Of a DNA stretch of 64,000 nt, positions 10,361-63,077 are shown one piece after another (position 1 is the stretch's first letter; each line of letters starts with the position of its first letter). Position numbers and translations under genes: made by a program. Below the pieces are notes generated by a model. That model saw nothing but the letters and a program-made list of their open reading frames with translations. It searched no databases and was not told where the DNA came from. This stretch comes from Bolinopsis microptera (lineage: Eukaryota; Ctenophora; Tentaculata; Lobata; Bolinopsidae), in assembly GCF_026151205.1 (NCBI RefSeq), contig NC_087077.1, forward strand, positions 16,590,983 through 16,654,982. Direction: 5' to 3'.

Positions 10361-13300
10361 ATGGACGCTATCATTATGATTAAGTACATCGCATTGTTGG
10401 GAGGTGTCATTCTTCTAACCATTCCTTTGATAAGCAACTACTCTTCCACATCTACATCTAATTTACCTCAAATAAGCAGATCTCATAAACATGGGACCAT
10501 CCTCTTCTTCAAGGAGTTATTTGATGAAGATCAGAAAAATCAGCTAAGAGAGTTGCGTTCAGCATTATTTGGAGTAAGTGATATTCAATTTTTCATTGAT
10601 TCTTTTTTAAATACTGCATTGTGATTTCGAGTTATCTTGAATTAAAATCGAAATGGATAACATGCTTAAATTGAATAACTTAATACATAATATCAAGATA
10701 GTTACGGGTATCGGCCTTACAAAATGACACGAAAAAGGAGATGGCTCTGACATGCACAAAAATGAGTTTTGTTCATGTTTTATTATCCAGATAGGTAGTT
10801 CAACAGGTATATTTTTCTTACCAGGGGTTGATTTGATTGAAAAACCGTAAATTTTGCGATGAAAATTGTCATCTTTGAAATCTTCCAAAAAAACATGCCT
10901 TACAAAAAGACAATTTCGTCACGGCTGTCATTTTTTAACAGCAGCCTATAGAAATTTGATTTCACCTAGGACAGTTAGATAAATATAATAGATTGAAGAT
11001 TAGAATAGCTTTTACAGGAAAAAGGATGATTAAAAAAAGTTGGGCAATTTCGCGTGAGATAGTGCCTTACAAAATGACAACCCAAAACGGCATCACTTCA
11101 AATCCGATTTGGGAAAAAGTTTCATTATTCTTTCACGTGTCTTACTGTTAGATATATATGTTGTTTATATTATACCAGTTCTGTTTTTACTAGAATATAT
11201 TAAAAAAGGAACATTTTTTATACTTTAAAAAAATTATAAAAATGTCATTTTGTGAGGCGTAAAAATCATTTTTTGTTTTCATACTTGAACACAGTATTTG
11301 GTTATATTTGATATTTTCTATGACTGGATAGATCACTTTTCAGTGTTTAGTTAACGTTTGACATGTTTTAGGAGTTGTTATTACTCTCTGCTTTCACAAA
11401 ATAGAAGCTTTATTTCGTTGAGTTTTGAAATCAGAGTTTGAAATCAAAGAGTTTGAAATCAAAGTTTTGATATCAGAACTGCACTTTTTTAATGCTACTT
11501 GATTGTTAACTGTCAGATTATGATTATTTTTAACTCCTTCTTGTATTGACTGTTTCTGATCCATTTTAGATGATGAAAGTAATTCAATCTGAAACATTGT
11601 CATTTTGTAAGGCTTTTCGGTGTCATTTTGTGAGGCATTTTGATCAAAATTGATGATCAAACAAACACATTTAGGCTCATCATAAGCTTACTGGGTTTAA
11701 GAATACCAATAATTAGGCGAGGGGCATCCAATATAAATATGCCATCTTTGTATCATAAAATAAAACTGTCATTTTGTGAGGCATAACACTGTCATTTTGT
11801 GAGGCTAGGTCATTTTTTTGTCATTTCTTCTACCAAAGTCACTAAATCAGTTTTTTTATTTGACCAGATTAGTCTTTGATTGACATAAGTCATGGTAGTA
11901 CCTGGTTTTCTGGGGTTAAATTCTAAACTTTGGTCTCCATTCTGGGTAACAGTTAGGCGGGGCAATGACTGAACAGGAAAAACGTCCATATTTATGTAAG
12001 AAATATAGATTCTATGTCATTATCATTCCTTGGGAAGTGTTAATTAATGCTTTTTCTTTCATACAGTAAAAGGAATAGGGTTCAATGTATGGGGAACCTA
12101 AGCTACAGCATGGTCTATGTGGGCTGTCATTTTGTGAGGCCTGTCATTTTGTAAGGCCGATACCCGTATTAAATTTATTATTAAAGGAATGTAAAATACA
12201 ACTTTTAGTTTAACTGAAAACCTTTTTCATTTAATACATAATATTACAGAAATGGTAGAACTAATATATAATTATAATCGAAATTGCTTTTCTATTGAAT
12301 CAACATTCAGCACTGTTCCAGGACTATATCATAGAGTAAAAGCCACTCATAACCGTTAAAAGCATGTCCATTTGATTCTTCTTGGTCGATCTTGCTTAAT
12401 ATTGTACTCCCTAATAACATTACATGTGTTGCAAACATGCAGGTTAGAATACAGTTCTTTGTTAGAATAACTATCCACAGGCTGTGTAACATGACACAGT
12501 ACACACTCCACCACACACAGCACTGGGGATCTATCTATCACGTGACTGTAAACCCGATTATGAATGTCATACTCACTTCCGTCTCTGTGTGCTTTCCCTG
12601 AGTTCACTTTGCTGTGTCGGTGTGAGATTGTGGTGAAGTAGGTGGAATCGTGAGGTATCAGACTGGTGCTGTAGTCTGTGAACTGTGTCATGGTATCTTG
12701 TTTTCCGTTAAAAAGGACTTCTCCTAACTCGATCAAAAAGGAAAAATGCTTGTTGAAATATTCAACCACCAGTATTTCACTGTCTAATCCTCCCATTTTG
12801 TTATCTAGATAGTATCTAGAGCACTCGTTTATATCAAACAATTGATCTCGTAGTATAACCTTGACTATCCGACCATCCCTCTGCACTGCCTCCATGGGTA
12901 GTGCTACTCGTGACCCCACCTGCCCTCTTAGAACCAGCTCCATTATCTGCAAATCCAGAACATTGTCCAATGTGAGGTTGTGTCTTCTCAAGAGGCAGTC
13001 AGCAAGATCTCTGCAGTCAAACACCACCTTTTTTATTAGAGAGTGCTGAAGAAAGGAGCTTAGCGATGATAGGTGCGAGGATGTGACTATGTAGATAATT
13101 CGTTCTGGAATCATTATTCCCAAACCTTGCAACTTTCCTGGAATGTTTTGGTAGATCAATTATAATGTGTGATAATTAAATTTTTGATTCGTATTTTATC
13201 ACAAAAGTACATGATCTGGAGAAAAACTTACCTAATCTATTGAGAGAAGGTACACCAAGACCAGCAATGTAGACATATTTAGCGTCTTCAGCCCACCTTT

Positions 13301-16300
13301 GACACCTAAGCTCCTCAAGCCTGACTGCTAACTGTTTCACCTCACTTAATGTGGACACCCATTTCACTGGCAGATCTGAGATCATTTCACTCGAACATTT
13401 CACTCGAACATATTATAGTGGTAGTTTTCAACAATTTCCGCCCACTTTTAGTTTTACAACGTAATTTAAGAAATCACGTCTCAAGCAATCATGATACAAT
13501 CATACTACACAATACACATGAAAGTAAAATACGGAGTACAGAAATGACAGTAGTTACTTAGTAGGTTACTCTTATAACGCTCTTTAGTTCCTAGTACTTG
13601 TTTTGATGTTGAAAGCTATTGTTTCTCAAAATAAGTTGATTATCGCCATTGTTTCCGTTATTAAAGAGGCAGGAAATTGATGAGTGGCTATATTTTGGTA
13701 TACTACTATAATAAAAGTCTGAGGTTTCGATAGGAGTTACATAATTAAATTGTTAATGCACATCATATTATCAGAAACGCATGTTTGTTAGGGCTAGAGG
13801 TAAGCACTCAGTATTCGAGGGATGAATAAATATTAATATGCGTTAAAGTAAACACTTTGAAGTTAGATTGGCTGCACGGCTTAGTGAATAACCTGTTACT
13901 CCCTACTAGCACGGTATTTTGGTGTTTTACTATGTTTTACGTATCGAACTATCCGATTATCACATCATATCACAAAACATTTAAAACAGATGATTTACTA
14001 CTTTTTTTCTGTAAAAGTTCACATATTACAGGGTTACTGGAGGTATTATGATCATGAACATACCCCGAAAGATGGTATTTCATGGCAACTACCAGTTGAC
14101 GCAGCTCTACTATCCCAATCTCCGTTCTGGAATCTTCTCAACGAAATTATTCCTGATAATGAGAGTCAGGTAAGACCGTCAATTTACCTTAATTCCCAAA
14201 AATTTGGGCGACAAAAATTTGAGCGGGCCTCTCGCCCAAATTTTTTGCAGACCAAATTAATTGCATAAATCTTTTCTGTCTGCTAAATTTTTTGCTAACC
14301 AAACTTTTGGCATTTGGCCTGTGGCCCTGAAATCTATAGAAAGATGGCTTTGTCTTCATATCCAAGTGAAATAATATTTGAAATTTTAGTTTTCTAATCT
14401 GTCATTCATGGCTTGACCAAGTAAAAAGGCTTATATTTTAAATGAACAGAAATAACTGGAATAGCTAACAGCTACTAATAAAACAAATGGCTAGAGGTAC
14501 GGATAGCTAGAGGTTTAAACAAGATCTGCAAATGGATTATCATCCACCGTAAAGTCTGATCTACAAGCATCAGTTATACCCGACTTCTCAAAGCCTTTCC
14601 TTATGTCATCTGGCCTCCCTTTTAAATATACAAAAAGTTCGTTCATCCAACGAGCGTGTACTTCACGGATCACTGTCAAGCGGGTATCAATTTTCGCATT
14701 GTCTGATGAAACTCCTCCATTGATCTGACACACTATGTTTTTCGCGTACCAATCTTCGTACTTATTGCGCATGAATTTCTTAGCCAGTCCATTGATAGAT
14801 ATGTCCAGGGGATGTAGATGATGGGTCATATTAGCTGGAACTTTCTGTAGGATGCAGTTGTTGGCTGTCATCAGATCTTTTATTGTCTTTGTGTGTTGGG
14901 CCGGAAACACATCTGATATCAGTAGCGCTTTCTGCTCAGGGTTGTTGATGGAGGCTCGAACTGATTCTATGTGGGGAAGAAGGATTTTCTCAAAGAACTG
15001 GACACTGGTCAAACCTTTCGACCATCTGGTGAGGCGTCATAATGATAATTGTATGTGAAAGGGGTATGATAAGATATGCTGAGTGTAAGTAGACTAAACT
15101 ATCTGATTGAGAGACTAAATATCACTATTGTATATCTATCATTTTGTACTGTGCCATCATCACTGTATTTTTTAGTAGTTACTGGGCAGATCGTAAAGTT
15201 CATAATGTGAAACAACTCAGACTACCACCTACATGCTTAAAATTGAAAGCAAAATGACTGGAATAATAAGGAATAATAATGTACTAAGGCAAATATCTAA
15301 CTGAAATTTTAGTGGAAAATTGTTCATTTTTCGAAGAATTTGTGCCCAAATTTTCGGTCGCCCAAATGAGTTCAAATTTTCTGCCCAAATTTTTCGGGCT
15401 CAAATAAATTGTGCTCAATATAATGGCACACAAATTTTTGGGAACTAAGGTAATTTCGAATGACCGTTAGTCTGGGGGGCGGGGGGGGGGCAACCTCATG
15501 CCCCTTGCCCATTTATTCCACAACTTTTGGTCAAATGGACATGGGCATTACTGTTTTTAAGACTTTCCCATTGGGTAAATCCTTAAAAACAGCGAAAACT
15601 TGAGTTGTGATGAAAATAAACATAACAGTGTATTATACCACCAGGGTTCCTCAGAGCACGTGGACGCGCGAGCACGTGTGCTGAGACGTGGAGATAACGT
15701 GAAGATACACTCCGTGTGCAATGAGCAGGAGTCTGGGTATACTATTGTTCTGTTTCTCTCCCAGCTTAAGGATAGGAACGATTACGGGGAGGTCCTCTTC
15801 TTTCAAGATGTGAGTAGCTGATCACTGGTCACGTGGGCGTGTTTATCATGTTACATAATATAATAGTAGATAGTTATGTACAATGTACATTGTACATTTT
15901 TAAACTTATAAGTACTGTATTTCACTATACCGCTTTTAAGTAACCATATTCATTTTTAAGTTTTTCAATACGACTGATTTCGTGAAATAACTCCAAACAC
16001 CAGAATGATGTGCACACAACCCTACAACCTAAACAGTACAGTGTACTGGTGTGGTCCTGTAGGATACCCTACCAGTTCCAATATCCGTCCATATCTACCG
16101 GCTTCGGTCAAGGTAATAACTTGGTCCATATTTAGCTCTGTTCATTTTGTAGGAAGATTAAACCAAATAAATCTTATATTATTAACTGATAATTTTAAAT
16201 CAAATTTGATTTATCCATTCTGCAACATTATATATAATATCGAAGTTATTTATTGTTTCAAATATAAATAGAAGCTGAAACCCTCATTTCAGTGCCACAC

Positions 16301-19300
16301 GTTTGTCCTTATCTTATTTTATCTCTCCCTTATGATCTCCCTGACAATAATCAATATCCCTTATCTCTATCAGTGTTACTCCAGATAACAATGTACAATA
16401 CAGTTGATGTGAAGCCCGCTTATCTTCCTCACTCAGTCAAACATTTCCCTATTTTCCAAGGAGTTGACGCTATCAACAAAACTTTCAGGTAAATTTACTA
16501 CTAAAGTAAGTAAAATTGTACACAGATATGTGTATATATCGCTTAAATTTATTTTTAACAACACATTTACATGGCAATATGTTATGCAGATCTGCCTGAA
16601 CTGGCGTCTGGGATGACCATAATATATTTGAAATTTCATTTGTCTCAGAAGCACTGCAACCATCATCTACCAACACTTTAATTTAAGATAAAGGTCACAA
16701 ACAGTGGTGTCAGAATTTATATATAAATTAATGCGATATATCGCATAACCTACCAGCAATTAGATATTTTTAATTGACTAATAGTAATACAGCTGTTGGA
16801 GAGTAAGTACGAATAGTAGGAACAGTGATAGATTACAGGACAAACGGCATCAGGTGTTCATACCTTATCAGAACAATACAAATTATTGTATAAACATGGT
16901 GCAGTTAATTGAGTTGAGATAGTTAAATGTACTGAGGGTATTTCAAAGAGGCTGTACTCACCGTGCACGTGATGTTACATCCCATTTCTCCCTTTGTTCC
17001 CTTCAAAGAGTGAAAACTTCTGTAATTTCAGGGCAGAAGATCACGTGACTACTGTGGAACACACGGCTCTAAACCGACCAATCTACGTGCTGGATAATCT
17101 GTTCAGAGAGGGTAAAACTAAATTCTAAATTCTATTTATTAGGGATTTAGTGTGGATCTATTTTATAATAATATGGACATTGTACATTAATACTTTCAAC
17201 ACTACTATATAACAAATAATTTGAGGGATGGAGCCAAAGAATGTACCCGAAGGGGCGTCGACACGAAGCAAAGTGAAGATGAGCCCCCCAAAGGAGGATT
17301 CTACTATCAATGTTCCAAAGTCTGAAGAGAAATATTGTCAGTGCGAAGATTACATTCCGGAGCAGCTTTCAGTAGAGTGTGAATCCTGTAAACTTTACTG
17401 GCATCTGAGTTGTGTCGGCTTGACAGGTTTAAAGGAGGAAATGCTTCAACTTCTTATCAACTGGAAGTGTCCGTATTGTTTCGTGGTACCCAACACCTCA
17501 CACGACTCTGTTGAAAACAGAGCAATCAGGGCTATCCTCAAAGAAGAGATCAAGCTTATTACACCAGCTCTGACAAACTCTCTCAAAGAAGCCCTCAAAG
17601 GGAGCGCAGAGAAAACAGTTGATATTAAGCTGTTCGTCTCTATTCTGAGGTAACAGCACAAACCCAGAAGAAGGTTCTCGATGACATGAGTCGTGAACAA
17701 GCTTCTAAAACTGTTATTTCGGAAGTGCAAATGAAGATGCACACTGATACATTTGAGCGAAACAAACGAAAACTCAATCTGTGTGTGCTCAAGGTTCCAG
17801 AAAGCAAAAAGACTACCTCTAAGCAACGCCAGGAGGACGACTCCAAGTTCTGCAGGGAGACCCTAAAGATTAAGAAGGACGACATGATTAGTTGCCATCG
17901 CTCTGGCAAGCTTGATGCTGACAAGCCAGATCACCGTCGCCCGCTCATCATCCAGACACGAGATGAAGAGTCAGTAAATTTCTACGCTGACCATGGTAAG
18001 GGCTGGAAAGAGTCAACTTATTGGATCAACTTGGACCTCTGCAAGGCAGACAGAGATATTCGTTTTTTAGCCAGAAAGGAGAGGAAGAAGAGGCAGGAGG
18101 AAGCGAAGAAAAGAGAGACAGAGAAGATGAAGGAGGAAGCAAAGAAAAGAGAGCCAGAGAAGACAGAGGACAAAGCGGAGGCCGCAGTGCCCAGCCGTTA
18201 AATATTTTTTATACCAATGCTAACGGCCTATTTAATAAAATTGATGAACTAAAATGTATTTTATCAATGTATAAATCTATTGAGGTAATTTGTGTAACAG
18301 AAACTCTTTTTAGTAGTGATATATTAGATGCCGAAATTTATATTGAAGGATTTAGTATGATTAGAAAAGATAGAGATTTTAGAATTGACAATTCCACTGG
18401 CAGTATAAGTGGTGGAGGAGGCTCTATAATTTATGTTAAAAACTGTTGTAATGCTTCACTAGTGAACTCTTTTTTAAAGGCACCGGATTCTTTAGCTGTT
18501 AATATCAACACATCAGGTGGACTGATTAGTATTTGTTGTATTTACAGATCCACTTCATTGAATTTAGAACAGAATAATGCGTTAATATCTTGTATCAAGA
18601 GCATCTGTAGTGAAAGGAATGATTTTGAAACACTCCTTTTAGGAGATTTTAATTTACCAAATGTTTTATGGGAAACTGGTAGCATAAATAGTAATATTGC
18701 TAGCAAGAACCAGTTTTTAGTTACTCAACAGAAATTCATGGATGTTTTCAATGACAGTGGTTTAACTTGGTATTTCACCAACGAGACAACTAGAAGACGG
18801 CTTGTGAAGGATACTCTCAAGGAGAGTCTTCTTGATCAGGTCTTGTATACAAATGATGCTCTTGTCAACGGTTGTAAGATCGTTTCTCCGCTTGGTAAGA
18901 GTGATCATGTTGGGATACTTGTCGAACTAGTTGTTTCGCCGGATACTAGCAAATGTTTAAAAGAGAAGATTATCAAACCTATATGGGGTAAGATTTCCTC
19001 TGAAGAGTTATTAAATTTTAGTTTGAAAAATATCGACTGGGATTATAGTTCTACCAATGATGTTCAAGATATGTGGGCTGAATTACATGGTAAACTGGAG
19101 ACTGTTGCTGCAGCTGTTCCGACTGCTTCGGTTTATCTCGACAACAGACCTGTCAAGTTGCCATGGAGTACATCTGCACTTAAACGAATGAGAAAGAATA
19201 AAGATAAAGCATGGGCTGAGTTTGATATTAATCCATCTGATGTTAATTTTAGTTATGCAAGTAGCAAACAACATACTTATGAAGTAGCAGAAATTAAAGC

Positions 19301-22300
19301 TAAAGTTAACTATGAAAAGAAAATTACATCTAATCTGAAGCAGAATTGTAAGTCTTTTTACTCTTATTTACGAAATAAACGGCAAATTAAATCAAGTGTG
19401 GTTTCTTTAGATAGAGGAGATGGTACACGCACAGATAGTTCGACTGAGTCAGCTGAGGTACTCGCAAGTGCCTTTAGCTCTGTTTTTGTGCGTGAACCAC
19501 CTGGCCCTCTCCCTAAAACTGAGAATTTAAGACCTGACAATGAGAGTATTGATGATATTGATGATATGGAAGTCAACAGTTCTGATATAAAAAAGCAACT
19601 TTTAAAGCTTAACATTTTTAAGAGTTCTGGTCCGGATGGTGTTCATCCGAAGTTGTTGAAATCGCTAGCTTATGACAACAATTTTGTTGAAGCATTAACT
19701 AAATTATTTCAAAAGTGTTCAGATACAGGATCTTTACCTGCAGTGTGGAAATCTGCATCTGTTGTAGCATTGTTTAAAAAGGGTATTAAATCGGACCCCT
19801 TAAATTATAGACCAGTTTCATTAACTTGTATTTTGTGCAAAGTGTATGAAAAGTTGGTGAGAGCACATGTTTTAAATTTTCTAGAACATCGAATTTCGAA
19901 GCATCAGCATGGATTTGTTAAGGGTAAATCGTGTTTATCTAATCTTTTAGAGACATTTGATGACATTCTTGACATTTTAGATGAAGGTGCCCCGGTTGAT
20001 CTTCTATACTTTGATTTTAGTAAGGCATTCGACACAGTCCCCCACTTTAGACTTCTGTCTAAATTGGAAGGCTTTGGTGTCAAAGGAAAGGTTTTAGATG
20101 TTATTAAAGATTTTCTGACAGACAGGACTATGAGGGTTTCTGTAGAAGGACAATGGTCCGAGGTTAAACATGTTTTATCTGGTGTTCCTCAGGGGTCAGT
20201 TCTAGGCCCTCTCCTATTCATTCTGTATATTAATGATTTGCCTGACCTTGTAAAAAATAAGATAAAGTTATTTGCTGATGATCTTAAATTAATTGGTAAT
20301 GCAGCTAACCACGGTAGTGTTGCTGAAGATATCGAAGAATTAGAAGTTTGGGAAAGTATTTGGCTTTTACAATTTAATCCTGCCAAGTGCAAAGTAGTGC
20401 ACATAAATTTTAACAACAATCCTAATTTAAATTATAAGGTAAATGGTATAGAACTTGAAGTATCTGCACAGGAAAAAGATTTGGGGGTTATTACCCATAA
20501 CTCCCTGCTTTGGAACGAACAGATCAAAGCATGTATCGCTAAGGCAAATCGTATGATTTGTTGGATTGTAAGGAATTTAGTTATTAGAGAAAAGGTTGTT
20601 ATGATTGCTATATATAAAGCTTTAATAAGACCTCATCTTGAGTATTGTGTCCAATTGTGGAATCCACCTGCGGCTCATGGAAGTTGGGGGACTGTTTTGG
20701 AGCTGGAGAGCGTCCAGAGGCGGTTTACCCGTCTGATTGATGAGGTGGGTACTCTTCCATACAGCCGTAGACTGGAAATCCTCAATTTGACAACGCTGGC
20801 AGAGCGGCGAATACGTGGGGATCTTATTGAAGCTTTTAAGGTTATTAATGGTATGACTGATTATGGTTCAGACTTGTTCAGACCAAGCAGATCAGGTCTT
20901 AATCTGGTTTCATCCAATAGATGTAGTAAAAGTGTGACAAAAGTCAAGAATATCCAGAAGTCTTTTCTCCCGGAGCGAGTTATTCCATATTGGAACAAAC
21001 TCCCTCCGGACGTCAAGAACTCTGTGACAGTTTTAGGTTTTAAAATTAAATTAGAAGGATATAAGATAGATATGATTTCTAAAAGTATTACAAATGATTG
21101 CTTTTTTTGGAATGTTTCTAATGAAGTTTTAATAAGAATTGAGGGAGCCAGTTATGTCAGTAATAAAGAGAAACATAACAATTATCTTTGGTTCCATCCT
21201 TATGTGGCAAAGAAGCGTTTTATAAATCTTTATTCCACTGGGAAGTTTTTAAAATAGGATAATGTTTTTGATGAAATTGTTTTTAAATATTGTATTTGAT
21301 AATTAATTAATGTTGGTGGGGAAATATTTATTATATATTTTTTCACACAGTGCGATGATAGTCTGTAGACATTTGTGATGATGTGATGTCATAAATTTTA
21401 CTTTACTTTACTTTACTTTACATGATAGTCAGCTAGTGACTGAATAGATAAACTATTTTAAAGATTCTACTTCAAGACTTACATTATTTATTATAAAACT
21501 TTATTCAAATAAATAATTGTATAAACAAATTAAAAATCTGATAAGTAACCTACTAAAACTAAAATAACTTTCTCCACTTAGGTCTGTCTTGGGCTAAAAA
21601 AAATCAAATTATAAATGTCTCTCAAGACTTACAACACACTTTAACGGAATTCCTTCACGATCTCTTCTCAGATATGCTAGTTGAGCTGCGTGAACACCTG
21701 TACATGTCGTCACAGTATTACTACGACGACAGTGACGACGAGGGGGAGACGGACAACGTGCAGTGGATCAGTGGTCACCGTACCAGCGAGTTTGTGAAGT
21801 CAGAAATGTGGGCAGTTGTCAACCAAACCCTTAATCAGATAACAGGTAACTTTAGTTGTTTAATATTTAGTTATTTGTATTGAATATTTGTATCTTTTAA
21901 ATGTATTGATAATAACCAGATAGGAGAGCGACCGAAAATGGAAACAAAATATACAATTTAATAACTAAAACTAGATTTTATTAAACAATAAACAGTAAGT
22001 TCATAAAACCACTCTTAGAATGTCGAGTAATACTAGAGCTGAATACAAATTTGCCTATAGATTATCAAATTTCACAATTATTCAGAAATGTTCAGATTAT
22101 AATTAACTGTTTAAAGGTTAAGATAAGTTATTTAATTGTGGAAAATGGCGTGTCTGATATATGAAAAACCACAAGAAATTTAAAGAATAGGCGGCTCAGT
22201 CTTGCTGATATCAATTTGTCTGACTTCTACCTCGTGTCATTAGATCCATTGTTCTCGATGGCCGTCTAACTCTTCTTTTCTCGTCATCTCTCGCTGAAAA

Positions 22301-34300: not shown

Positions 34301-37300
34301 GTCTACCCAAAGAAAATACCTGTTTTGGTACGTACTACCCCTGATCTAAACCCAGGTAACCGTAGCGTCAGCGACTGCGATATTTTGAAGGCCAAGTTTG
34401 TCACATGAACATCTCGGCAGTGTTTGATTGGTCTAAGCACGTTACCAAACGCCAAAATCTGCTGCTGAGTTGGCTGAGATATTTGAGAAAAATCTCTCAA
34501 TTTTTGGCTCGTTTAAATCTGGGGGATTATTTGTCACATCACTATGTTTTGTTTCAAATTTACACGCGAGTAGATCCAATTCTTCGAGCTAAGTTTTACC
34601 TCAACCAGACTGTTGAGAACATCAAAAAACCCATTTGTCCATGTTAATGTGATTCATTTGATTCGCCCTCGTGTCCACCCTTTAAAGAAAGTAGCGCACT
34701 TGTGTCCTACGCCCTCGTGTCCGGTTCCCCTATAAAATATCTGAAGTAATAAATTAAACCGTACTGTAACTACTATAACAAACAGTAAAAGAAACAAAGC
34801 CTCTATCGTATTCGACACTAAAGTAAATATTTTACAATTAAAACTTGAATAAAAGATAAATAGACGTCAGTTAACATTTCACCACCTTTTATTCTCAACA
34901 AAATGATGAAAACGACCCTTCTTCGTTAGTTTCCCTAAAAATAACCATTACATGCGAAAATAACCATTACATCCTCTCAAATATGTAGTATAGTACATAT
35001 CTAATATCTATTGTATATTACTAACTTACTTGAAGTAGATTGGTACATCTAACACGGTAAGTATAATTGTGGTGGCGATGATAAATGGTAAGAGACACAT
35101 ATCAAACTAACAAAAAGATAATGTGTGTCGACCGTTAAGCTTTTAAATGCATCTTAAATTGTCTCCTTTTATGTCAAAGAGTAGAGGAGTATTCAAGCAA
35201 TGATGATAAATAAATAATATATTTCATATTAGTTCTTTATATAAATATCTATACTATAATTTAAACTTGACGAAATTTCCCCGGCAACGGGGACATAGAA
35301 GAAAAAACACCGAAAATCGACCTCAAAATGACCCTCTGGTGATGCCAAACCCAGCTCGCAAATGGAGTTGAAACCTCGCCATTTTTAGCAGGGTTGTAGA
35401 AAAAGGATAGGAATAGGCTATAGCATTCTTAGAATTTTGATTTAGGCTTTAGATTTTTTATAATTAACGTCAGAAGTGAGGTAAAATAACCGTTAGAATA
35501 ATGTCGTTATTTTAGCAAAGGTTTACTGCGCTGTTGCGTAGCAACGTTAAAATGCACGTGCGCGAGCAAAAACATTTTAACTACGCGCGTTGTTATGCTG
35601 TATGCTACGTCATAATTTCAAAACTAGCTCACATTTACGCTCACGCTATGACTTATATTCATAACTTGGGTTGTGATTGGTATTTTTTGATGCGGTAAAA
35701 AGTATCGTTTTGGGAATCCGAATACTAACAACGCTGTCGCCATTGTTAGATAAATTCCATTATGTCTACAGTATAACAGAGCTATATGATGAAGAGAAAT
35801 TAAAACATAACTGATTTTTAAAATTTCCTCGAACAAAGCTTTCGACTAGCGGGTTTCTAGTATAATATATTCTAACAGTTAGAATTTTGTCTTTACTGCT
35901 ACACACCTATTCAGCCTACATAATAGTATATGGAATTGAGAAGAAACCTAAGATATTCATTATACTTCATGACTGAAAGATGATATAATACTGTATCAGA
36001 AAACTCTGGATTATCATAGTTCAGATATCCACTAACCACTTCAATCCTCAGAACTTTTACCTATGACTAATAGTAATCGTACCAAGCTGCATGTCAAACT
36101 TTTAAAAACCTTATTTAATGTAAATTTCAGGCCACGAAGGATGGTACCCTTACGACGTTTCCTGTAATCTGAACCGAGCATGGGACCACACAAGGATACA
36201 TAAAGACTGCTACGACAAGGATGAGTACACATTTCTCCTCTACCTTAACCCTGAGTTCAAACCGGGACATCTGGGTGGTACGGTCTACTATGAACGTAAG
36301 TAATTAATTAGTTAATTAGTTAATTACTATGAACGTAATTAGTTTTCTATTATGAAGCCTGAAGGTGGCGTGACAGCTGTATCTACTAGGGGCTGCAACC
36401 ACTGAGGGGTGCATGATCACTAATCATCGTATATAGTTCTTTTAATAAAATCTTTGAGCGTTTTGACTCCAGCTGCCTGTAAACAGCTGTATAATTTAAA
36501 ACACCAATGCTATTTAGTCGTCAGGTGACTACATAGACCTGACAAATAATTAATAGTTCTTATTTCTAGATTTAAGGAACTAACTTTACAATTGAAACTT
36601 TCATTTTACAGACGAAGATTTATCCAACATTGTGATGTCAGTACAGAACAGATACGGACGTGTAGCACTATTCCACTGCGAGATAAAACATGCCGGACGA
36701 CCACCACACGCTTATCTTACTAACGCACGATATTCGTTCGCTGTAAAGGTTGCTAGGACCAAGTGAGTGAATCATGAACTAGATTTTCGCTAGCTGCCAC
36801 ATTTTGACTTAAGTCGCGACATCCTACATGAAGTGGCTATTTGAGGCTAAAATTGGGCACTCTAGGCCGCATGTTTGATGGAAGGCGCACTACAAATTTT
36901 CTTGAACACAAAGCGCACAGTTGGCCGCGCGATCGATCACGGCTGTTCAGAACGTCGATTTCTGCGATTCTAATTAGACAGGATTACACTAGGATTTATC
37001 CTAGCGCGCCCGAGATCTCTCGGATTTTATCAATCCTAACGCCGATCCAGTCCCCCCAGGATACCTCCGATGAATTCCTATCGCCGAGCGGCGATAGGAT
37101 GTGTAAGTTCCGAGAGGCGATAGGATTTGCTCTCGGACCCGATAGGAAATTAAAACCCTATCGGATCCGAGCGCTAATCCTAGCGGAGATAGGATTTAAC
37201 AATTCCGAGTGCCGATAGGATTTGCTCTCGGACCCGATAGGATACTCAAATCCTATAGGATCCGAGAGCAAATCCGAGAGGCGATCAAATTTCAAATATC

Positions 37301-40300: not shown

Positions 40301-42333
40301 CTCTTCAAGTTAACTCTAGGATACCTTGTAGTACTCTTCAAGTCAACTTCAGGATAACTTGTAGTACTCTTCAAGTTAACTTCAGGATACCTTGTAGTAC
40401 TCTTCATTCTTCAAGTTAAGTTCAGGATACCTTGTAGTACTCTTCAAGTTAACTTCAGGATACCTTGTAGTACTCTTCAAGTTAACTTCAGGATACCTTG
40501 TAGTACTCTTCAAGTTAACTTCAGGATACCTTATAGTACCCTTCAAGTTAACTTCAGGATACCTTGTAGTACTCTTCAAGTTAACTTCAGGATAACTTGT
40601 AGTAATTTTTGAGTTAACTCTAGGATACCTTGTAGTACCCTTCAAGTTAACTTCAGGATACCTTGTAGTACTCTTCAAGTTAACTTAAGAATATATTCTA
40701 ATCAATTTTGAGCAGATAAGAATGTTTCAGATAGATCTTAGAATGAAACAACAAAGCCCTTTCAGACAAAACTTTGTAGCTATTCTAAGCCATGTTATTC
40801 TGACATTTGGAAACATTTCCTTGCGTTTGAACATAGACTATATTGCTAAGGATAAAATGCTATTCTTAATAACCACTGCAATTCTGAAAAAGCCATTCAC
40901 AATTTCTTCTGTTCAGTAAAACAATTCTTCGGAAATATAACAAAAGGATACGGCACCGAGAATTCCCAGGCGGTCACCCATCCAGGTACTAACCCGGCCT
41001 GCAGTTGCTTAACTTCCCAGATCGAACGAGATGGGGTGTATTCAACCGAGTATGGCCGTATCTAATGATGATGAATTTTGCTTCTCTATATTTTCTCATT
41101 AATTTTACGGAAGAATGAAAACATACTAAAAGTTAATATTTTAAATTTTTTTTTCATGTTTTCGATCTCGATGGAATTTTATTTGAGTTCGGAAACGCGC
41201 AACACGCATTTTATCTCCCGGAAATGATAAATCCGAGAGCACACCTCTCGGAAACGTAAAATCCTAGAGCTAGGCTCTCGGATTTTTTTATCCTATCGCC
41301 TCTCAAAAATAAAATCCGAGCGCCTAGCGATCAGGAGCGATCGGACGACGATCTGAAATGCGATCGGATCGCCCTAGGACAGCGAACGTCGTCCAACCAG
41401 GAATGGCGTAATCCTATCGGATTAGAATCCACGCTAGAACAGCCGTGCGATCGATGTGCGCATGCTGAATGGTATATATATATAGCGTTCATATATACTG
41501 CATTTAAATCTGATATTTAACTTTTCAACTAGCTATATATCTCCCTAGTAATTGAACATGCAGTATGACTAAGCACATACAATTATCAAGCTAGGTTGTC
41601 TACTTTCTTCAAACTCAGATGACATGACAATGTATCCAATTAATATCGTATAAATTTCAGTGTCGTTCCGCCAAAAATTAGCCCTTCAAATCAAAATAAA
41701 TCGGTCTGCAGCAGGTTTCCTCGAGGGGCCATGAGCCATCTACTTAGGACGTCCGGCAAATAGGGAGGGGGTGGTTTTGGAATTTCGGACAAATCCGGGC
41801 AGGGGGAGGGGGGTGGTTTCTGAAAATCCGGACGTCTGGAAATTTTGGCAGAATTTACGAAAACGTCCCATTTATTTCAACTCTTTGATGGCCCCGGCCC
41901 CAACCATTTGATACGGAAATTGCTAGATACTATCTATGATATTCCATTATTTAGGCTAGAAGCTGTTCAACGTGAGATGCAACAGAGTCTGTGGAATGAT
42001 TTAGATGACGAGTGAGTGATTAGTTTTACATCATTTTAACATGAGGTTAACGAATTTCTCTTTTAGAGGCAATTTCAAACTTGATCAATAGTAATGTCAT
42101 ATGTGATCAATAATAGATGATAATAAGCAGCGATCGGATCTTATTAATTATGAACACACCACGTGACTGACTAATATTGCAGGGATAAGCCGGAGGAGAT
42201 GACTAAATTGACTGAGGAAGTGGGATCCGATCCGGATCTACTCGAGAATAAGTTTGTAGATTATTTTGAAGAAGAATTGGACAATAGGTTAAATGATTTA
42301 GAAACAGCTTTGAAAACGGCTGGTGGCAGCTAA
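10361..42333 (+). CDS. Tandem 2-oxoglutarate/Fe(II) oxygenase-like protein, ER-targeted (11 exons)
   Basis: Exons: 10361-10573, 14032-14169, 15645-15809, 16004-16112, 16293-16488, 17032-17111, 21582-21845, 36131-36295, 36612-36762, 41955-42011, 42183-42333. All introns are GT-AG, phases join without a break, and the 1689 bases give 562 residues. A hydrophobic segment at residues 8-24 suggests a signal anchor. The C-terminal module (about 275-500) has the double-stranded beta-helix pattern with H412-K-D414 as the HxD motif, H470 as distal histidine and R483 as a likely 2-oxoglutarate anchor. The N-terminal module (about 40-240) aligns with it, for example ELRSALFGGYWRYYD against ELREHLYMSSQYYYD. 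It has H139-S-V141, no distal histidine and Q229, so it is probably inactive. The tail is acidic and helical. The prolyl-hydroxylase-like superfamily is the nearest known fold; the substrate is unknown. ATG 10361 has a good AAACATGG context. Confidence 0.8.
10705..12166. mobile_element. TIR transposon in oxygenase intron 1, with subterminal repeat clusters
   Basis: The ends are 25-bp perfect inverted repeats beginning CGGGTATCGGCCTTACAAAA, flanked by TA on both sides, which fits a Tc1/mariner-style target duplication. The 16-bp core GCCTTACAAAATGACA recurs inside. Copies near the left end (about 10895 and 11063) are in the same sense as the left terminus. Copies at about 11241, 11600, 11622, 11768, 11790 and 12125 are in the sense of the right terminus, mostly as TGTCATTTTGTGAGGC. 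The only open frame (minus, 11394-11660, 88 residues) has no recognisable transposase motif, so the copy is probably non-autonomous. Confidence 0.8.
12356..13385 (-). CDS. EXD1/Egalitarian-type 3'-5' exonuclease-like protein (2 exons)
   Basis: Exon 1 is 13232-13385 and exon 2 is 12356-13137, joined through a GT-AG intron of 94 bp; together they encode 311 residues. An in-frame stop just upstream makes the ATG at 13385 the first available start. Residues near 85-110 read VVFDCRDLADCLL followed by NVLDLQI, the ExoII region of the DEDD exonuclease fold as seen in EXD1 and Egalitarian. The first catalytic motif, normally D-x-E, is replaced by YVYIAGLG, so catalysis is unlikely. EXD1 is itself a catalytically dead RNA-binding adaptor of the piRNA pathway, and a related role is inference. 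The C-terminal third contains paired cysteines (CVVECVLCHV and CNTCNV) that could bind metal. The gene lies antisense within intron 1 of the oxygenase gene. Confidence 0.6.
14183..15455 (-). mobile_element. pogo/Tigger-like DNA transposon remnant
   Basis: Imperfect terminal inverted repeats, TTTACCTTAATTCCCAAAAA on the left and its relative at 15430-15455 on the right, bound a 1.27-kb insertion in intron 2 of the oxygenase gene. Several further CCCAAATTTT-rich subterminal words lie inside each end. The left terminus begins only about 13 bp after the splice donor at 14170. The element carries the 3' half of a transposase gene (see 14515-15012). Confidence 0.75.
14515..15012 (-). pseudogene. 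DDE transposase C-terminal fragment (pogo/Jerky type)
   Basis: A 165-residue frame. Residues 30-42 read LLISDVFPAQHT, corresponding to the second catalytic aspartate region (typically L-x-D-N-x-x-A-H). Residues 58-70 read VPANMTHHLHPLD, matching the V-P-P-N-T-T-x-x-x-Q-P-L-D signature of pogo, Tigger and Jerky proteins. The DNA-binding N-terminus and first aspartate region are missing upstream, and the second motif has D-V-F in place of D-N. It is therefore a truncated and probably inactive transposase inside the TIR element at 14183-15455. Confidence 0.75.
17228..18201 (+). pseudogene. LINE ORF1 with PHD finger, frameshifted
   Basis: The first segment, 17228-17653, has a PHD-type zinc finger at residues 36-81. 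Its cysteines follow CQCEDYIP, CESCKLYWHLSC and WKCPYC, a Cys4-His-Cys3 pattern found in ORF1 of several CR1-group LINEs. The frame closes at 17653, but the following frame continues with a basic, coiled-coil-rich protein to 18201. A one-base shift between about 17630 and 17652 would join the two. The C-terminal end is a lysine/glutamate-rich helix (repeats of E-E-A-K-K-R-E). In CR1-like elements ORF1 is a nucleic-acid-binding chaperone of the ribonucleoprotein. Confidence 0.75.
18200..21257 (+). CDS. LINE ORF2: endonuclease and reverse transcriptase
   Basis: A long, uninterrupted frame. The apurinic-type endonuclease starts immediately at the ORF1 stop codon (NIFYTNANGLFNK) and includes VTETL, LLGDFNLP and a terminal SDH motif (GKSDHVGI). 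The reverse transcriptase contains YRPVSLTCILCKVYE, a D-x-S-K-A-F-D motif A (YFDFSKAFDTV), GVPQGSVLGPLLF and the catalytic box LFADDLKL. A typical C-terminal LEYCVQLWNP region follows. The frame is open further upstream to 18021, but that part overlaps ORF1 and is basic coiled-coil sequence out of frame. The endonuclease nicks target DNA and the reverse transcriptase primes from it. No inactivating change was seen in ORF2. Confidence 0.9.
22412..23347 (-). CDS. Divergent class A-like GPCR, single exon (copy D)
   Basis: A 311-residue intronless frame with seven hydrophobic segments. Like its neighbours it has G-D instead of G-N in TM1 (LIGDTLILYAS), an A-V-S-D in TM2 matching the L-A-x-x-D site, and cysteines before TM3 and in the second extracellular loop (DSLC and YSCRY). 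It has S-S-K-L-M in place of D-R-Y after TM3, and NVYIYTV where the N-P-x-x-Y of TM7 normally sits. Loss of the D-R-Y arginine suggests altered G-protein coupling or an orphan role; this is inference. It is about half identical to the three tandem copies further right and lies in the same intron and orientation. The ligand is unknown. Confidence 0.85.
   Translation of the reverse strand: MIISNEHTSFGTDSYVERYLWLAYHIFVFLSTLIGDTLILYASHQKNALKLHAFVATTMQHIAVSDLAVVILRILPRIISLISNSWVLGDSLCPLSAYSNPVLFYAGTSFIAVLTSSKLMVLRYPFRAGNWTRKRAHMICGIIWIYFLMYPAYLHIIGTNDVEFDYRIYSCRYVTETWSKITLVLSFIMIFSPFIIVICTTIPTLMYLAKARKSARRVRGRVPSFIGAMAVSFTAIFYLISISPLFVCYVWKHFVKTDTCQFHLYRIAIFLLSIYVMCNVYIYTVTIESFRRFIQIKFQSLLPVSLRTGRE
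24150..24438 (-). pseudogene. Truncated GPCR pseudogene (TM6-TM7)
   Basis: The minus strand encodes GRDPWQGTLAVALTAI, then a TM7-like LLNVVSNLYI, and after a frame change YALTIRNFRRFLRL. This corresponds to the last third of the neighbouring receptors. A small deletion near 24232 shifts the frame in TM7. The 5' part (TM1-TM5) is absent because a MITE (24439-24885) abuts the gene at exactly this point. It is closer to the tandem copies than to the 22412 receptor, judging by GRDPWQG. Confidence 0.85.
24439..24885. mobile_element. MITE of the AGGGGTCGTTCACATATTA family
   Basis: The left end reads AGGGGTCGTTCACATATTAT then TACGTAATC. The right end reads GATTACGTAATCAACGACC then AAACCCCT, an inverted match. 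Inside are long C-runs (24488-24592) and a 17-bp tandem unit TTTTATTACTGATTTAA repeated about five times at 24598-24680. It truncates the GPCR pseudogene on its left. Related elements end each GPCR duplication unit at 27802-27982 and around 30474-32110. Confidence 0.75.
25600..25760 (-). repeat. Inverted copy of the GPCR-unit upstream flank
   Basis: This block is the reverse complement of about 150 bp at 27735-27890 and 30420-30560, including AGCTATTTTGGAGCATTGGG and the AACCCCTAATAG MITE end. Receptor copy A is therefore bracketed by inverted repeats, which may have promoted local rearrangement. Confidence 0.75.
25884..25985. repeat. 53-bp tandem duplication
   Basis: Two adjacent copies of a segment containing AACAAAGAATGTTACCTAG and GTCAGTAAATACACAGACTA. 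The equivalent place in the next duplication unit (28870-28925) has a single copy. Confidence 0.85.
26273..26390. promoter_or_regulatory. CRE-octamer array A (TGACGTCA x5)
   Basis: Five perfect TGACGTCA palindromes (26273, 26320, 26340, 26360, 26380) and one variant. The last four are spaced exactly 20 bp apart, in a repeat of GTGACGTCACTCTGTCTGTT. TGACGTCA is the classic cAMP-response element bound by CREB/ATF bZIP factors. The array ends about 245 bp beyond the stop codon of GPCR copy A. Regulatory function is inference; a neutral minisatellite is the alternative. Confidence 0.6.
26637..27605 (-). CDS. Class A-like GPCR, tandem copy A
   Basis: A 322-residue intronless receptor with seven hydrophobic segments. 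It has an N-glycosylation site at N6-Y-T, G35-D36 in TM1, D66 in TM2, and the C93/C171 pair expected to bridge TM3 and the second extracellular loop. S117-K-L occupies the position of D-R-Y, followed by a basic stretch, and N279-F-Y-I-Y283 stands for N-P-x-x-Y. TM6 keeps a proline (S-A-T-P). Copies B and C differ from it at only a few positions. It differs from them at A42 rather than serine, G-Y rather than A-C near residue 97, and I149 rather than alanine. All copies are antisense to the oxygenase gene whose intron contains them. The ligand and coupling are unknown. Confidence 0.9.
   Translation of the reverse strand: MITTSNYTLYGMHNNAERYSWTAYHIFVLLSSLIGDTVILYASFQKDAFKVHQVIIAVIQHIAASDIITSLVRAFPRSISLIANSMVIGDSLCYATGYIMRIMFPVGANLIAVLTTSKLLMLKFPLRPANWTRSKAHLICSAIWIIAICDPVLLYFIDSGDVMFRYKTYSCSYISTAKITSLLSFVFVFVPVTIIIGTTIPTLMYLATARESARRVGGRDPWQGILAVALTAIVYLVSATPIIVYLISRKFVAPDPTGPFEFTLYRIAVFMTLLNVMSNFYIYALTIRSFRTFLHLKICKIFSFVPVSLRSSRGFPGVQFIY
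27802..27982. mobile_element. MITE closing GPCR unit A
   Basis: A 180-bp element from AGGGGTTGTTCACATATTAT to a right end GTGTGGACAACCCCT, an imperfect inverted repeat. The interior carries GATTACGCGTGTGTAAT and GATTACGCAATATA. It is the same family as 24439-24885. Confidence 0.7.
28310..28520. repeat. Two-copy ~125-bp tandem repeat
   Basis: The segment GTGTCTAATCAACT...CCTATTGGTTTAGCATATAA occurs at 28313-28400 and again at 28434-28520 with a few differences. Each copy is followed by a small GGGGCTG-AGCCCC hairpin. A further short duplication of GCGAGCGAAGCGAGCGGGCC lies at 28630-28675. The sequence sits between receptor units A and B and is absent between B and C. Confidence 0.75.
28985..29052. 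promoter_or_regulatory. CRE-octamer array B (TGACGTCA x3)
   Basis: Perfect octamers at 28985, 29005 and 29045, with a TGAAGTCA variant at 29025, all at 20-bp spacing. The array lies about 255 bp 3' of the stop of GPCR copy B, the equivalent position to arrays A and C. Confidence 0.6.
29308..30276 (-). CDS. Class A-like GPCR, tandem copy B
   Basis: A 322-residue intact receptor nearly identical to copies A and C over coding and flanking sequence. Distinguishing residues are H7 in the N-terminal glycosylation site (N-H-T), I54 in place of valine in TM2, S42 instead of alanine (shared with C), A-C near residue 97 (shared with C), and K rather than R in the C-terminal S-S-K-G. The S-K-L replacement of D-R-Y and the N-x-x-I-Y end of TM7 are unchanged. 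The maintained frame in all three copies argues that they are expressed or very young. Confidence 0.9.
   Translation of the reverse strand: MITTSNHTLYGMHNNAERYSWTAYHIFVLLSSLIGDTVILYSSFQKDAFKVHQIIIAVIQHIAASDIITSLVRAFPRSISLIANSMVIGDSLCYATACIMRIMFPVGANLIAVLTTSKLLMLKFPLRPANWTRSKAHLVCSAIWIIAACDPVLLYFIDSGDVMFRYKTYSCSYISTAKITSLLSFVFVFVPVTIIIGTTIPTLMYLATARESARRVGGRDPWQGILAVALTAIVYLVSATPIIVYLISRKFVAPDPTGPFEFTLYRIAVFMTLLNVMSNFYIYALTIRSFRTFLHLKICKICSFVPVSLRSSKGFPGVQFIY
30636..32077 (-). mobile_element. Penelope-like element, 5'-truncated, 14-bp TSD
   Basis: The insertion is bracketed by the identical 14-bp sequence ATATATATAACTAT at 30622-30635 and 32078-32091. On the minus strand it encodes the end of a Penelope-type reverse transcriptase (VSFLDIKF, then HPNHTFSSIVYSACLRLRRI). 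A linker follows, then a GIY-YIG endonuclease with CGGRHCGTC and CNMCYVGRT, and a PLGLNAMDPFG ending. At least one frame disruption and an internal stop separate the segments, so it is defective. It landed inside the MITE that closes GPCR unit B, after that unit was duplicated. Confidence 0.85.
31194..31958 (-). pseudogene. Penelope reverse transcriptase/GIY-YIG remnant
   Basis: Frames 31761-31958 and 31194-31712, plus 31091-31279 in another frame, encode successive parts of one Penelope-like protein. These are the thumb region after the catalytic domain (SFLDIKFCFDTAG), a serine-rich linker, a cysteine motif CGGRHCGTCNII, and the GIY-YIG part with VVYLFT and YVGRTVQPLRAR. No catalytic Y-x-D-D box is included because the 5' end is lost at 32077. 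Confidence 0.8.
32193..32340. promoter_or_regulatory. CRE-octamer array C (TGACGTCA x6)
   Basis: Eight units at exact 20-bp spacing from 32193 to 32340. Octamers at 32193, 32213, 32233, 32293, 32313 and 32333 are perfect; those at 32253 (TGACGTAA) and 32273 (TGACGTCG) have one change. The array ends about 245 bp 3' of GPCR copy C. Confidence 0.6.
32588..33556 (-). CDS. Class A-like GPCR, tandem copy C
   Basis: A 322-residue intact receptor closest to copy B: both have S42, A-C near residue 97 and A149. It differs from B by N-Y-T in the N-terminal glycosylation site, V54, and F-P instead of F-L at the start of the cytoplasmic tail. The S-K-L in place of D-R-Y, the paired cysteines and the TM7 N-F-Y-I-Y are retained. 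The upstream flank (33557-33640) with TAGCTTGCTAGGTAGCAAG is shared with A and B and is the most likely promoter region; no clear TATA box was recognised. Confidence 0.9.
   Translation of the reverse strand: MITTSNYTLYGMHNNAERYSWTAYHIFVLLSSLIGDTVILYSSFQKDAFKVHQVIIAVIQHIAASDIITSLVRAFPRSISLIANSMVIGDSLCYATACIMRIMFPVGANLIAVLTTSKLLMLKFPLRPANWTRSKAHLVCSAIWIIAACDPVLLYFIDSGDVMFRYKTYSCSYISTAKITSLLSFVFVFVPVTIIIGTTIPTLMYLATARESARRVGGRDPWQGILAVALTAIVYLVSATPIIVYLISRKFVAPDPTGPFEFTLYRIAVFMTLLNVMSNFYIYALTIRSFRTFPHLKICKICSFVPVSLRSSRGFPGVQFIY
33690..34100. other. Intron sequence, no feature seen
   Basis: AT-rich intron 7 sequence of the oxygenase gene with no supportable gene or repeat. Confidence 0.35.
34109..34730. 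mobile_element. 622-bp foldback MITE with GGACACGAGGGCG motifs
   Basis: The element is flanked by identical 8-bp TATAAAAT repeats (34101-34108 and 34731-34738). Its left end reads GGGTATAGGACACTAGAGCG. The right end, read on the other strand, is GGGGAACCGGACACGAGGGC. The inverted repeats extend about 100 bp and include GGACACGAGGGCGAATCA, with the short word GGACACRAGGGCG recurring several times. The interior has no coding capacity. The 8-bp target duplication fits the hAT group. Confidence 0.8.
34740..36130. other. Intron sequence before oxygenase exon 8
   Basis: No gene seen. A short segment containing CACCTTTTATTCTCAACAAAATGATGAAAA at 34878-34910 (here shortened: TTTATTCTCAACAAAATG) also occurs at 33943-33962, showing a dispersed duplicate. 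Confidence 0.4.
36880..37300 (+). repeat. Hairpin-rich GATAGGATTT repeat, left copy
   Basis: The block contains GATCGATCACGGCTGTTC and many alternating words of the type GGATTTGCTCTCGG and CCGAGAGCAAATCC. At 37217-37274 these form a near-perfect hairpin of about 25 bp per arm with a short loop. A related block lies in inverted orientation at 41160-41460. It sits in intron 9 of the oxygenase gene. Confidence 0.7.
37470..38465. repeat. 33-bp satellite array 1
   Basis: About 30 copies of a 33-bp unit containing TTCAAGTTAACTTCAGGATA and CCTTGTAGTACTC. Several 36-bp variants carry an extra ATA (GGATATAACC), and some units have TTTTTGAG in place of CTTCAAG. Because the unit length is divisible by three, the minus strand shows a spurious 11-residue repeat frame. 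Confidence 0.95.
38870..40115 (-). mobile_element. LINE remnant (endonuclease plus RT tail) inside the satellite
   Basis: On the minus strand, 39772-40089 encodes the start of an apurinic-type endonuclease (STFNIRTAREQHKRIEL, ILGLQESN). Near 39480-39570 is another endonuclease piece (VITCYSPTEASSDEE). Then come a late reverse-transcriptase segment (DGHALEEVEDF, near 39400) and the C-terminal region at 38877-39349 (YGTKTWTITESLKKRIDGCY, RMLRMALNVDW, GHIQRHDDL). The catalytic reverse-transcriptase core is deleted and the frames are broken. The satellite unit continues on both sides. Confidence 0.75.
40122..40690. repeat. 33-bp satellite array 2
   Basis: The same 33-bp unit as array 1, about 17 copies. 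The block from about 40211 to 40430 matches 37905-38110 almost base for base. That match includes rare variants such as the expanded junction CTCTTCATTCTTCAAG and the GGATAACTTG units. Confidence 0.95.
40947..41062 (-). rRNA. 5S ribosomal RNA
   Basis: The minus strand from 41062 reads GATACGGCCATACTCGG and ends TCTCGGTGCCGTATC. The first and last 8 bases pair perfectly as helix I. Internal landmarks are CCATCTCGTTCGATC, the A-box region AAGTTAAGCAACTGC, GGGTTAGTACCTGGAT and the C-box GGATGGGTGACCGCCTGG. A CCTTTTG run follows and can terminate RNA polymerase III. The length is 116 bases against about 119-120 for typical animal 5S RNA. It is a solitary copy in intron 9 of the oxygenase gene, antisense to it. 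It may be a functional gene or a young pseudogene. Confidence 0.9.
41160..41460 (-). repeat. Hairpin-rich GATAGGATTT repeat, right copy (inverted)
   Basis: Read on the minus strand, this contains ATCGATCGCACGGCTGTTC, CCGATAGGATTA, GCTCTAGGATTTTACG and CTCTCGGATTTATC. It corresponds to the block at 36880-37300 in opposite orientation. Together they enclose the satellite arrays, the LINE remnant and the 5S gene. Confidence 0.65.
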
Positions 42334-62500: not shown

Positions 62501-62510
62501 TAGACCCCCG

Positions 62511-63077
62511 ATGAACACATGTCGTATGCACGCTCTCTTCTGGACCATGGTTGTTACCTTAATCCCAGTGATCGTGTCCATAGCCTTGCTGAAACTAACA
62601 GTAATACCCAATTACCATGGAGCCCAATTCGAAGTAGGAACATGTCTTCTAAAGAACTCTTCCGATTTCAACGTGGAACAATACGTTTGGAAGGACTGTT
62701 TTTGTGGGATTAGCTGCACTGCTAAGTTCCCGTGTATCCCTCTTGTCGGATATTTCACCCCGCTTGAAGGAGGTTCTAAGCGTGAAGGCTTGTTTTACAC
62801 CGACTACAGTGCTCTCCAGAAAGACTGCTTCGTGGAACCTGATAAATGTGAAAAAGATAGTTTTGATAACTCTAAAACCGTCGCGTCAGTCATATCACAT
62901 ACCTTTCATTTACATTGGGATCAGAGAGCTAGCTTTCACTGTTGGGGTTTCGGGAGAACTTTTTATTTGGAGAATAACTACTCTATAGAAAAGGCGATTG
63001 TGGCATTCTTCACGCCTCTTTTCTTCGTCATTGCAGTCCCCTCGCTGGCATTTATGATTTGGTGTATATATTCTTGA
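62511..63077 (+). CDS. KCNMB-like BK-channel beta subunit homologue (putative)
   Basis: A 188-residue single-exon frame with short cytoplasmic ends and membrane segments at about residues 9-32 and 161-186. The extracellular loop of about 128 residues has eight cysteines (45, 63, 65, 69, 75, 106, 113, 144). This is the layout of slo-channel beta subunits (KCNMB), which also share a C-x-C-G...C...P-C-I stretch after TM1 (DCFCGISC and FPCI here). They also share a CxxxPxxC-like pair (CFVEPDKC), a long helix, and F-H/T-C-W/Y before TM2. In that family the protein modulates calcium and voltage gating of BK channels at the plasma membrane. CTCTAG at 62499-62504 could be a splice acceptor, so an upstream exon is possible. 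The family call rests on pattern only. Confidence 0.55.
   Translation: MNTCRMHALFWTMVVTLIPVIVSIALLKLTVIPNYHGAQFEVGTCLLKNSSDFNVEQYVWKDCFCGISCTAKFPCIPLVGYFTPLEGGSKREGLFYTDYSALQKDCFVEPDKCEKDSFDNSKTVASVISHTFHLHWDQRASFHCWGFGRTFYLENNYSIEKAIVAFFTPLFFVIAVPSLAFMIWCIYS

Follow-up and report, generated by a model that had tools for sequence, protein, structure and literature searches.

The excerpts of the literature at hand describe OGFOD1 and Tpa1p as 2OG oxygenases with tandem DSBH domains, the second of which is without a metal site (PMC4396695). According to the same excerpts, the second domain serves as the dimer interface in Tpa1p but not in OGFOD1, and as of 2015 the OGFOD1/Tpa1p group contained the only 2OG oxygenases then identified with a tandem DSBH (PMC4396695). 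LH3 (PLOD3), a collagen 2OG hydroxylase, is described in the excerpted text as carrying a non-catalytic domain ahead of its catalytic DSBH, and this non-catalytic domain has a glycosyltransferase fold (PMC6082870). Collagen prolyl 4-hydroxylase alpha, again in excerpt, has one catalytic domain that follows dimerization and peptide-binding domains (PMC9676403). Among the matches listed in our literature search, which covered mostly open-licence PMC full text, partly as excerpts, there was no animal tandem 2OG oxygenase besides OGFOD1/Tpa1p; as most subscription papers and all animal protein databases lay outside that search, the two-half protein described below may already be annotated somewhere.

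The gene of interest lies in a 64,000-nucleotide stretch of the genome of the ctenophore Bolinopsis microptera (hereafter, the window). Its exon structure was derived by frame reading of the window and by comparison with a 501-aa paralog from the same genome. The resulting model, on the plus strand, opens with an ATG at 10361 and closes with a stop codon ending at 42333, a span of ~32 kb; it consists of 11 exons joined in phase; all ten introns are of the GT-AG type, and neither a stop nor a frame break occurs across the exons. These would be spliced to give a predicted product of 495 residues. The first-pass annotation had placed the start and the end correctly and had likewise given eleven in-phase exons, while the product length of 562 residues that it gave is replaced here by the 495 residues of the model that fits the paralog.

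The paralog came from genome searches in which the main part of one or the other half of the protein was the query (E up to 10); apart from the window itself, the single match lay on contig C3. There, a single intronless open frame of 501 aa carries both halves. A search of the genome with the viral family phrog_274 (E up to 1), in which weak matches can be missed, returned the same two places only. The genome contains further intronless hydroxylase genes: two genes that we take, by sequence, to be P4HA-like (L001, L003) and a separate frame that we likewise take to be OGFOD1-like (L002) are each a single open frame, of 491–598 aa.

Alignment with the paralog runs along the whole length of the spliced window protein. 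Exon 1 (10361..10573; ATG frame, donor gtaagt; 18 of 49 residues identical to the paralog) encodes a hydrophobic N-terminus, presumably a signal peptide or anchor, and the start of the first half, henceforth the dead half. The dead half continues through exon 2 (14032..14169; GT-AG, phase 0; 15/40 identical), exon 3 (15645..15809; 25/53), which contains a degenerate HxD site and C142, and exon 4 (16004..16112; 19/36), which contains C191. The end of the dead half and part of the linker fall in exon 5 (16404..16488; in phase, GT-AG; 6/28), and further linker, together with the first strand of the second or live half, in exon 6 (17032..17111; 10/27). The N-terminal part of the live half is encoded by exon 7 (21672..21845; 23/57), which is also a match in the genome search. 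Two exons that match PF13640 follow: exon 8 (36131..36295; 39/55), containing C348, and exon 9 (36612..36762; 26/50), containing C399. An acidic tail begins in exon 10 (41955..42011; in phase, GT-AG; 6/19) and is completed in exon 11 (42183..42333; 16/50), which ends in the stop codon without a KDEL-type ending. All 11 exons are on the plus strand.

Per-exon identity to the paralog is thus lowest in exon 5 and highest in exon 8, and the least supported exons are 5 and 10. In the paralog alignment, gap columns within four residues of an exon junction number two to three at junctions 1–3 and zero at junctions 4–10. An alternative start of exon 5 at 16437 is also in frame and would shorten the exon by 11 residues, giving a product of 484 residues; a start at 16384 was rejected on the grounds that it brings in-frame stops.

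Two of the introns contain other coding sequence. Intron 6 holds a LINE-like element (17225-21254, plus strand) with an open 1085-aa endonuclease/reverse-transcriptase frame (PF00078, PF14529) and a first ORF that, from its motif, is presumably PHD-finger-like. Nested antisense in intron 7 (22415-33691, minus strand) are intronless GPCR-like ORFs. One of these matches 7tm_1 (E 1.4e-12), and three tandem copies, 95–97% identical at the DNA level, appear by eye to be relatives of it; in Pfam scans, the first and third copies stayed without a match (E up to 1), as did the second (E up to 0.001). Repeat arrays at 37502-38480 and 40055-40609 and at 580-1679 have frames made of VVLFKLTSGYL-like and KVAYKVAY-like units. 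Downstream of the gene, a 562-aa open frame (51502-53187, plus strand) shows a weak reverse-transcriptase match (E 0.015) and looks to us Penelope-like, with a GIY-YIG-like end. A 196-aa open frame (62487-63074, plus strand) is, by eye, Cys-rich between two hydrophobic segments, and we take it to resemble BK-channel beta subunits; searches with it found no PDB sequence at E up to 1 and a single weak, unrelated match in Pfam.

A gene of ~32 kb whose introns harbour a LINE-like element and GPCR-like ORFs raises the question of whether the two halves truly belong together, or whether two adjacent genes or a decayed copy have been artificially joined. We regard such an artefact as very improbable: in the paralog, one open frame covers both halves, the 11 exons read through uninterrupted, and pN/pS is below 1 in both halves. 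Between the two paralogs, the 95% bootstrap range of pN/pS is 0.40–0.62 for the dead half, 0.30–0.49 for the live half and 0.47–0.79 for the tail, while that of the linker (0.70–1.39) is indistinguishable from neutral; because synonymous sites are saturated, these values are a rough guide only. The predicted eleven-exon gene, with its dead-live architecture, is well supported.

The first-pass annotation had proposed that the two halves of the protein are homologous, and this is borne out. Two-sequence profiles of the halves align by hhalign over 148 columns (92.6%, E 4.5e-7), where the best of 200 column shuffles reaches 3.9%. The dead half of the window protein also aligns with its own live half at a Smith-Waterman score of 98 (maximum of 1000 shuffles: 63), and with the live half of the paralog at 83 (shuffles: 48). 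The dead half of the paralog gives lower scores: 29 against its own live half, a value reached by 458/1000 shuffles, and 39 against the live half of the window protein, reached by 46/1000. By hhalign, its probability is 0.3% with the live halves and 1.1% with a profile of viral relatives, and it has no PHROGs match and no Pfam match at E up to 1. Judged by these alignments, the halves of the window protein are homologous, while the paralog's dead half appears to be joined to the oxygenase family solely via the dead half of the window protein, with which it shares 43% identity.

Alignment to the live half and to the phage profile identifies what the dead half has lost. Where an active enzyme has HxD, exon 3 encodes H139-S-V141 (codons 15708-15716); where the distal His is expected, exon 4 encodes Y195 (16070-16072); and where the 2OG-binding Arg is expected, it encodes Q208 (16109-16111), 13 places after Y195 and opposite R416 of the live half. 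The paralog has N-R-F, Y174 and L187 at the same sites. Since neither copy retains the Asp or the distal His, the facial triad is lost, a feature that presumably separates the dead half from halogenase-type HxG/A sites. The live half, by comparison, keeps H345 and D347 in exon 8 (36199-36201 and 36205-36207) and the distal H403 and R416 in exon 9 (36689-36691 and 36728-36730). The motif pattern reported in the earlier annotation (an HxD, distal His and Arg kept in the C-terminal half; the Asp, distal His and Arg missing from the N-terminal half) holds accordingly, but most of its numbering does not: H139 keeps its number, whereas H412, D414, H470 and R483 are the right residues under numbers shifted by a constant 67, which is the difference in length between 562 and 495, and the residue given as Q229 is most probably Q208.

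Some comparisons link the dead half to the same family as the live one. The best PHROGs family for it is, as for the live half, phrog_274 (E 0.014), and hhalign gives it 87.1% (E 4e-6) against the viral profile; in a rerun beside a shuffle control the values were 72.2% and E 3.4e-5, with 5.8% for the best of 200 shuffles. It scores below the PF13640 cut-off (15.0 bits against 27; E 0.049), and a dead-half profile run against the PDB returned three unrelated chains, at E 0.72 or worse. Taken together, homology, motif and paralog evidence support the predicted fusion of a degenerate 2OG-Fe(II) module with an intact one, and the dead half probably shares the DSBH fold.

Blocks of the dead half that are strongly conserved between the paralogs are RRGD[ND]V, DRNDYGE[VL]LFF and SCRxPYQ[FW]QYP. 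One way to explain them would be an allosteric role: the first half would act as a sensor whose former active site, now closed, takes up a small ligand or a peptide rich in proline, gating the second half. Y195, together with the SCRxPYQ[FW]QYP and DRNDYGE blocks around the former metal site, does fall among the most conserved stretches, but this conservation (in a comparison of two sequences) may merely maintain the fold or a Cys pair, and we consider a sensor unlikely.

The live half could be assigned to a family, and to this extent the statement in the first-pass annotation that the sequence matches no named family does not stand. It passes the PF13640 cut-off that the dead half fails (37.3 bits against 27; E 5.4e-9; best stretch 341-419), as does the paralog, at 28.0 bits. 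The best match in Pfam, PHROGs and PDB sequences is phrog_274 (E 7.7e-17, residues 3-171 of 176; the PHROGs library has no curated cut-off), which the live half of the paralog also matches (E 3.3e-10). For the two-half protein as a whole the earlier statement is right, in that no named enzyme family was found in Pfam, PHROGs or PDB sequences.

An initial viral search with the live half returned no relative. When the live-half core was aligned with two cyanophage proteins and this alignment used as the query, 25 relatives came up in viral contigs. In genome contigs, a search with one viral protein gave no relative, and one with an alignment of five of the viral relatives gave three. Among 198 genomes of one bacterial phylum, the live half (E 1e-5) matched one, a genome previously found. 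The four active-site columns (H, D, H, R) of the viral alignment coincide with H345, D347, H403 and R416; both His and the Arg are invariant across its 13 rows, and the Asp is present in 11 of them.

The fold of the live half was approached through a viral relative, L019, which was modelled from 13 aligned rows, the phage rows L017 and L018 being left out. The model has a mean pLDDT of 71.7 (residues 34-75 are poor), and its best structural match is PHD2 (Z 12.7, rmsd 3.4, 166 residues), with Trichoplax PHD at Z 12.0; the best Foldseek E value is 3.1e-6. Given these matches, the live half is, by homology, a DSBH of the prolyl-hydroxylase type. As the relatives mostly keep H, D, H and R, and L019 models as a prolyl-hydroxylase fold, phrog_274 itself looks like a 2OG-Fe(II) oxygenase family, and its label, 'DNA endonuclease V', is probably wrong; the proteins scanned against the family were L017 and L018, which match it at L017:219-935 and L018:120-773, and L019 is not among them.

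Whether a prolyl-hydroxylase fold implies a prolyl substrate is a separate matter. The second half might modify another residue or a small molecule, with the match to prolyl hydroxylases reflecting fold only; this we hold to be a real possibility, if not the one we favour. In its favour, the best family has a doubtful label and, to our knowledge, no tested function; similarity to PDB sequences, including a weak match to Trichoplax PHD, is low (E 0.043 and 0.019); and PolD, which is not titled a prolyl hydroxylase, is among the first Foldseek rows for L019. Against this, the structural matches listed for L019 are mostly prolyl hydroxylases, and a protein substrate in the ER is the simplest setting.

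The ER setting itself had been proposed in the earlier annotation. The N-terminus of the window protein is very hydrophobic (KD19 maximum 2.38, at residue 3), and an ER location is plausible by way of the paralog, the N-terminus of which is signal-like by eye and the C-terminus of which reads VRDEL, both pointing to the ER. The window protein, for its part, ends in GGS-stop, and a KDEL-type ending ([KHRQND][DENQ]EL-stop) is absent from the three plus-strand frames of the window. Such an ending, combined with so hydrophobic an N-terminal segment, would also fit a hydroxylase that acts on matrix proteins, is secreted or anchored in the membrane and has lost its retention signal, rather than a resident ER enzyme. 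We think this improbable in view of the VRDEL of the paralog; furthermore, an alternative last exon may have been missed, and ER enzymes can be held in the ER by partner proteins.

The cysteines are compatible with residence in the secretory pathway. In four of four animal halves, a Cys stands at the position after the HxD or its equivalent and another four places before the distal-His position: C142/C191 and C348/C399 in the window protein, C118/C170 and C337/C388 in the paralog. Counted by alignment columns in the 13 of 27 viral and phage proteins that were entered, the first Cys is present in 3/13 viral rows, the second in 0/13 and both in 0/13. The presence of the pair in all four of these animal halves suggests a disulphide in each, compatible with an oxidising lumen.

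The reading that we prefer, and consider somewhat more probable than its converse, is that of a tandem-duplicated ER 2OG-Fe(II) oxygenase with a live second module and a dead first module as its partner. Tandem duplication of one DSBH module would have produced the 495-residue enzyme of the secretory pathway. In the second module, Fe(II) would be held by H345, D347 and H403 and 2OG anchored by R416, and the module would hydroxylate a protein substrate of the ER lumen, most likely at a prolyl residue. The first module would have retained its fold while losing its metal and 2OG sites (H139-S-V141, Y195, Q208), and could serve as a rigid, non-catalytic partner that either (i) binds or positions the substrate, or (ii) provides an interface for a dimer or complex, as does the dead second domain of Tpa1p. 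Activity, prolyl specificity and the scaffolding role of the dead half are predictions from the encoded protein.

A broader proposal, to which we give even chances, is that the protein represents an independently evolved second class of tandem 2OG oxygenases: dead module first, live module second, located in the ER lumen, with a live module whose nearest relatives in our searches are marine-phage oxygenases and a dead module that is substrate-binding or allosteric and under constraint of its own. If true, this would matter in three respects. Firstly, a second case in reversed order would allow the contribution of a dead oxygenase domain to its active twin to be tested independently. Secondly, it would add a hydroxylase, as yet unassigned, to the animal secretory pathway. 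Thirdly, it would provide a handle on a phage family that probably carries a wrong label.

How does the window protein compare with known systems? The nearest rows of phrog_274, a family of marine phage 2OG oxygenases, have the same HxD ... IPHSxRxP ... R layout as the live half; the phrog_274 proteins at the loci examined differ in being 131–264 aa long with one such domain, and are without the Cys pair in 13 of 13 viral rows. EGLN/PHD2 and Trichoplax PHD have the fold of the modelled viral relative. These enzymes, however, have a single catalytic domain, act on HIF in the cytosol and nucleus, and differ from the live half in their His-to-Arg spacing. Collagen prolyl 4-hydroxylase alpha likewise has a 2OG-Fe(II) domain and hydroxylates prolines in the secretory pathway, as the window protein may do; the best match of the genome's own P4HA-like protein (one copy scanned) is phrog_61, not phrog_274. 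The collagen lysyl hydroxylases, which have two domains of glycosyltransferase fold ahead of the DSBH and which the first-pass annotation had offered as a pattern, are a poor analogy because the dead domain of LH3/PLOD3 has, in the excerpted description, a glycosyltransferase fold (PMC6082870), whereas the dead half of the window protein aligns to a DSBH half; among the three Pfam families that the 495-aa protein matches at E up to 10 there is no glycosyltransferase.

A better parallel, in our view, is OGFOD1/Tpa1p, which the first-pass annotation had not mentioned. As far as the excerpts describe them, the uS12 prolyl 3-hydroxylases OGFOD1, Tpa1p and Ofd1 share with the window protein the combination of one catalytic domain and one domain without a metal site. 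Their substrate is a ribosomal protein, whereas that of the window protein is probably found in the secretory pathway. The genome's OGFOD1-like protein does not match phrog_274, and the window protein does not follow the domain order of the OGFOD1 family, in which the catalytic domain comes first: OGFOD1, Tpa1p and Ofd1 run from live to dead, while the window protein runs, behind a hydrophobic N-terminus, from dead to live, and would thus be an OGFOD1/Tpa1p-like pairing with its order reversed.
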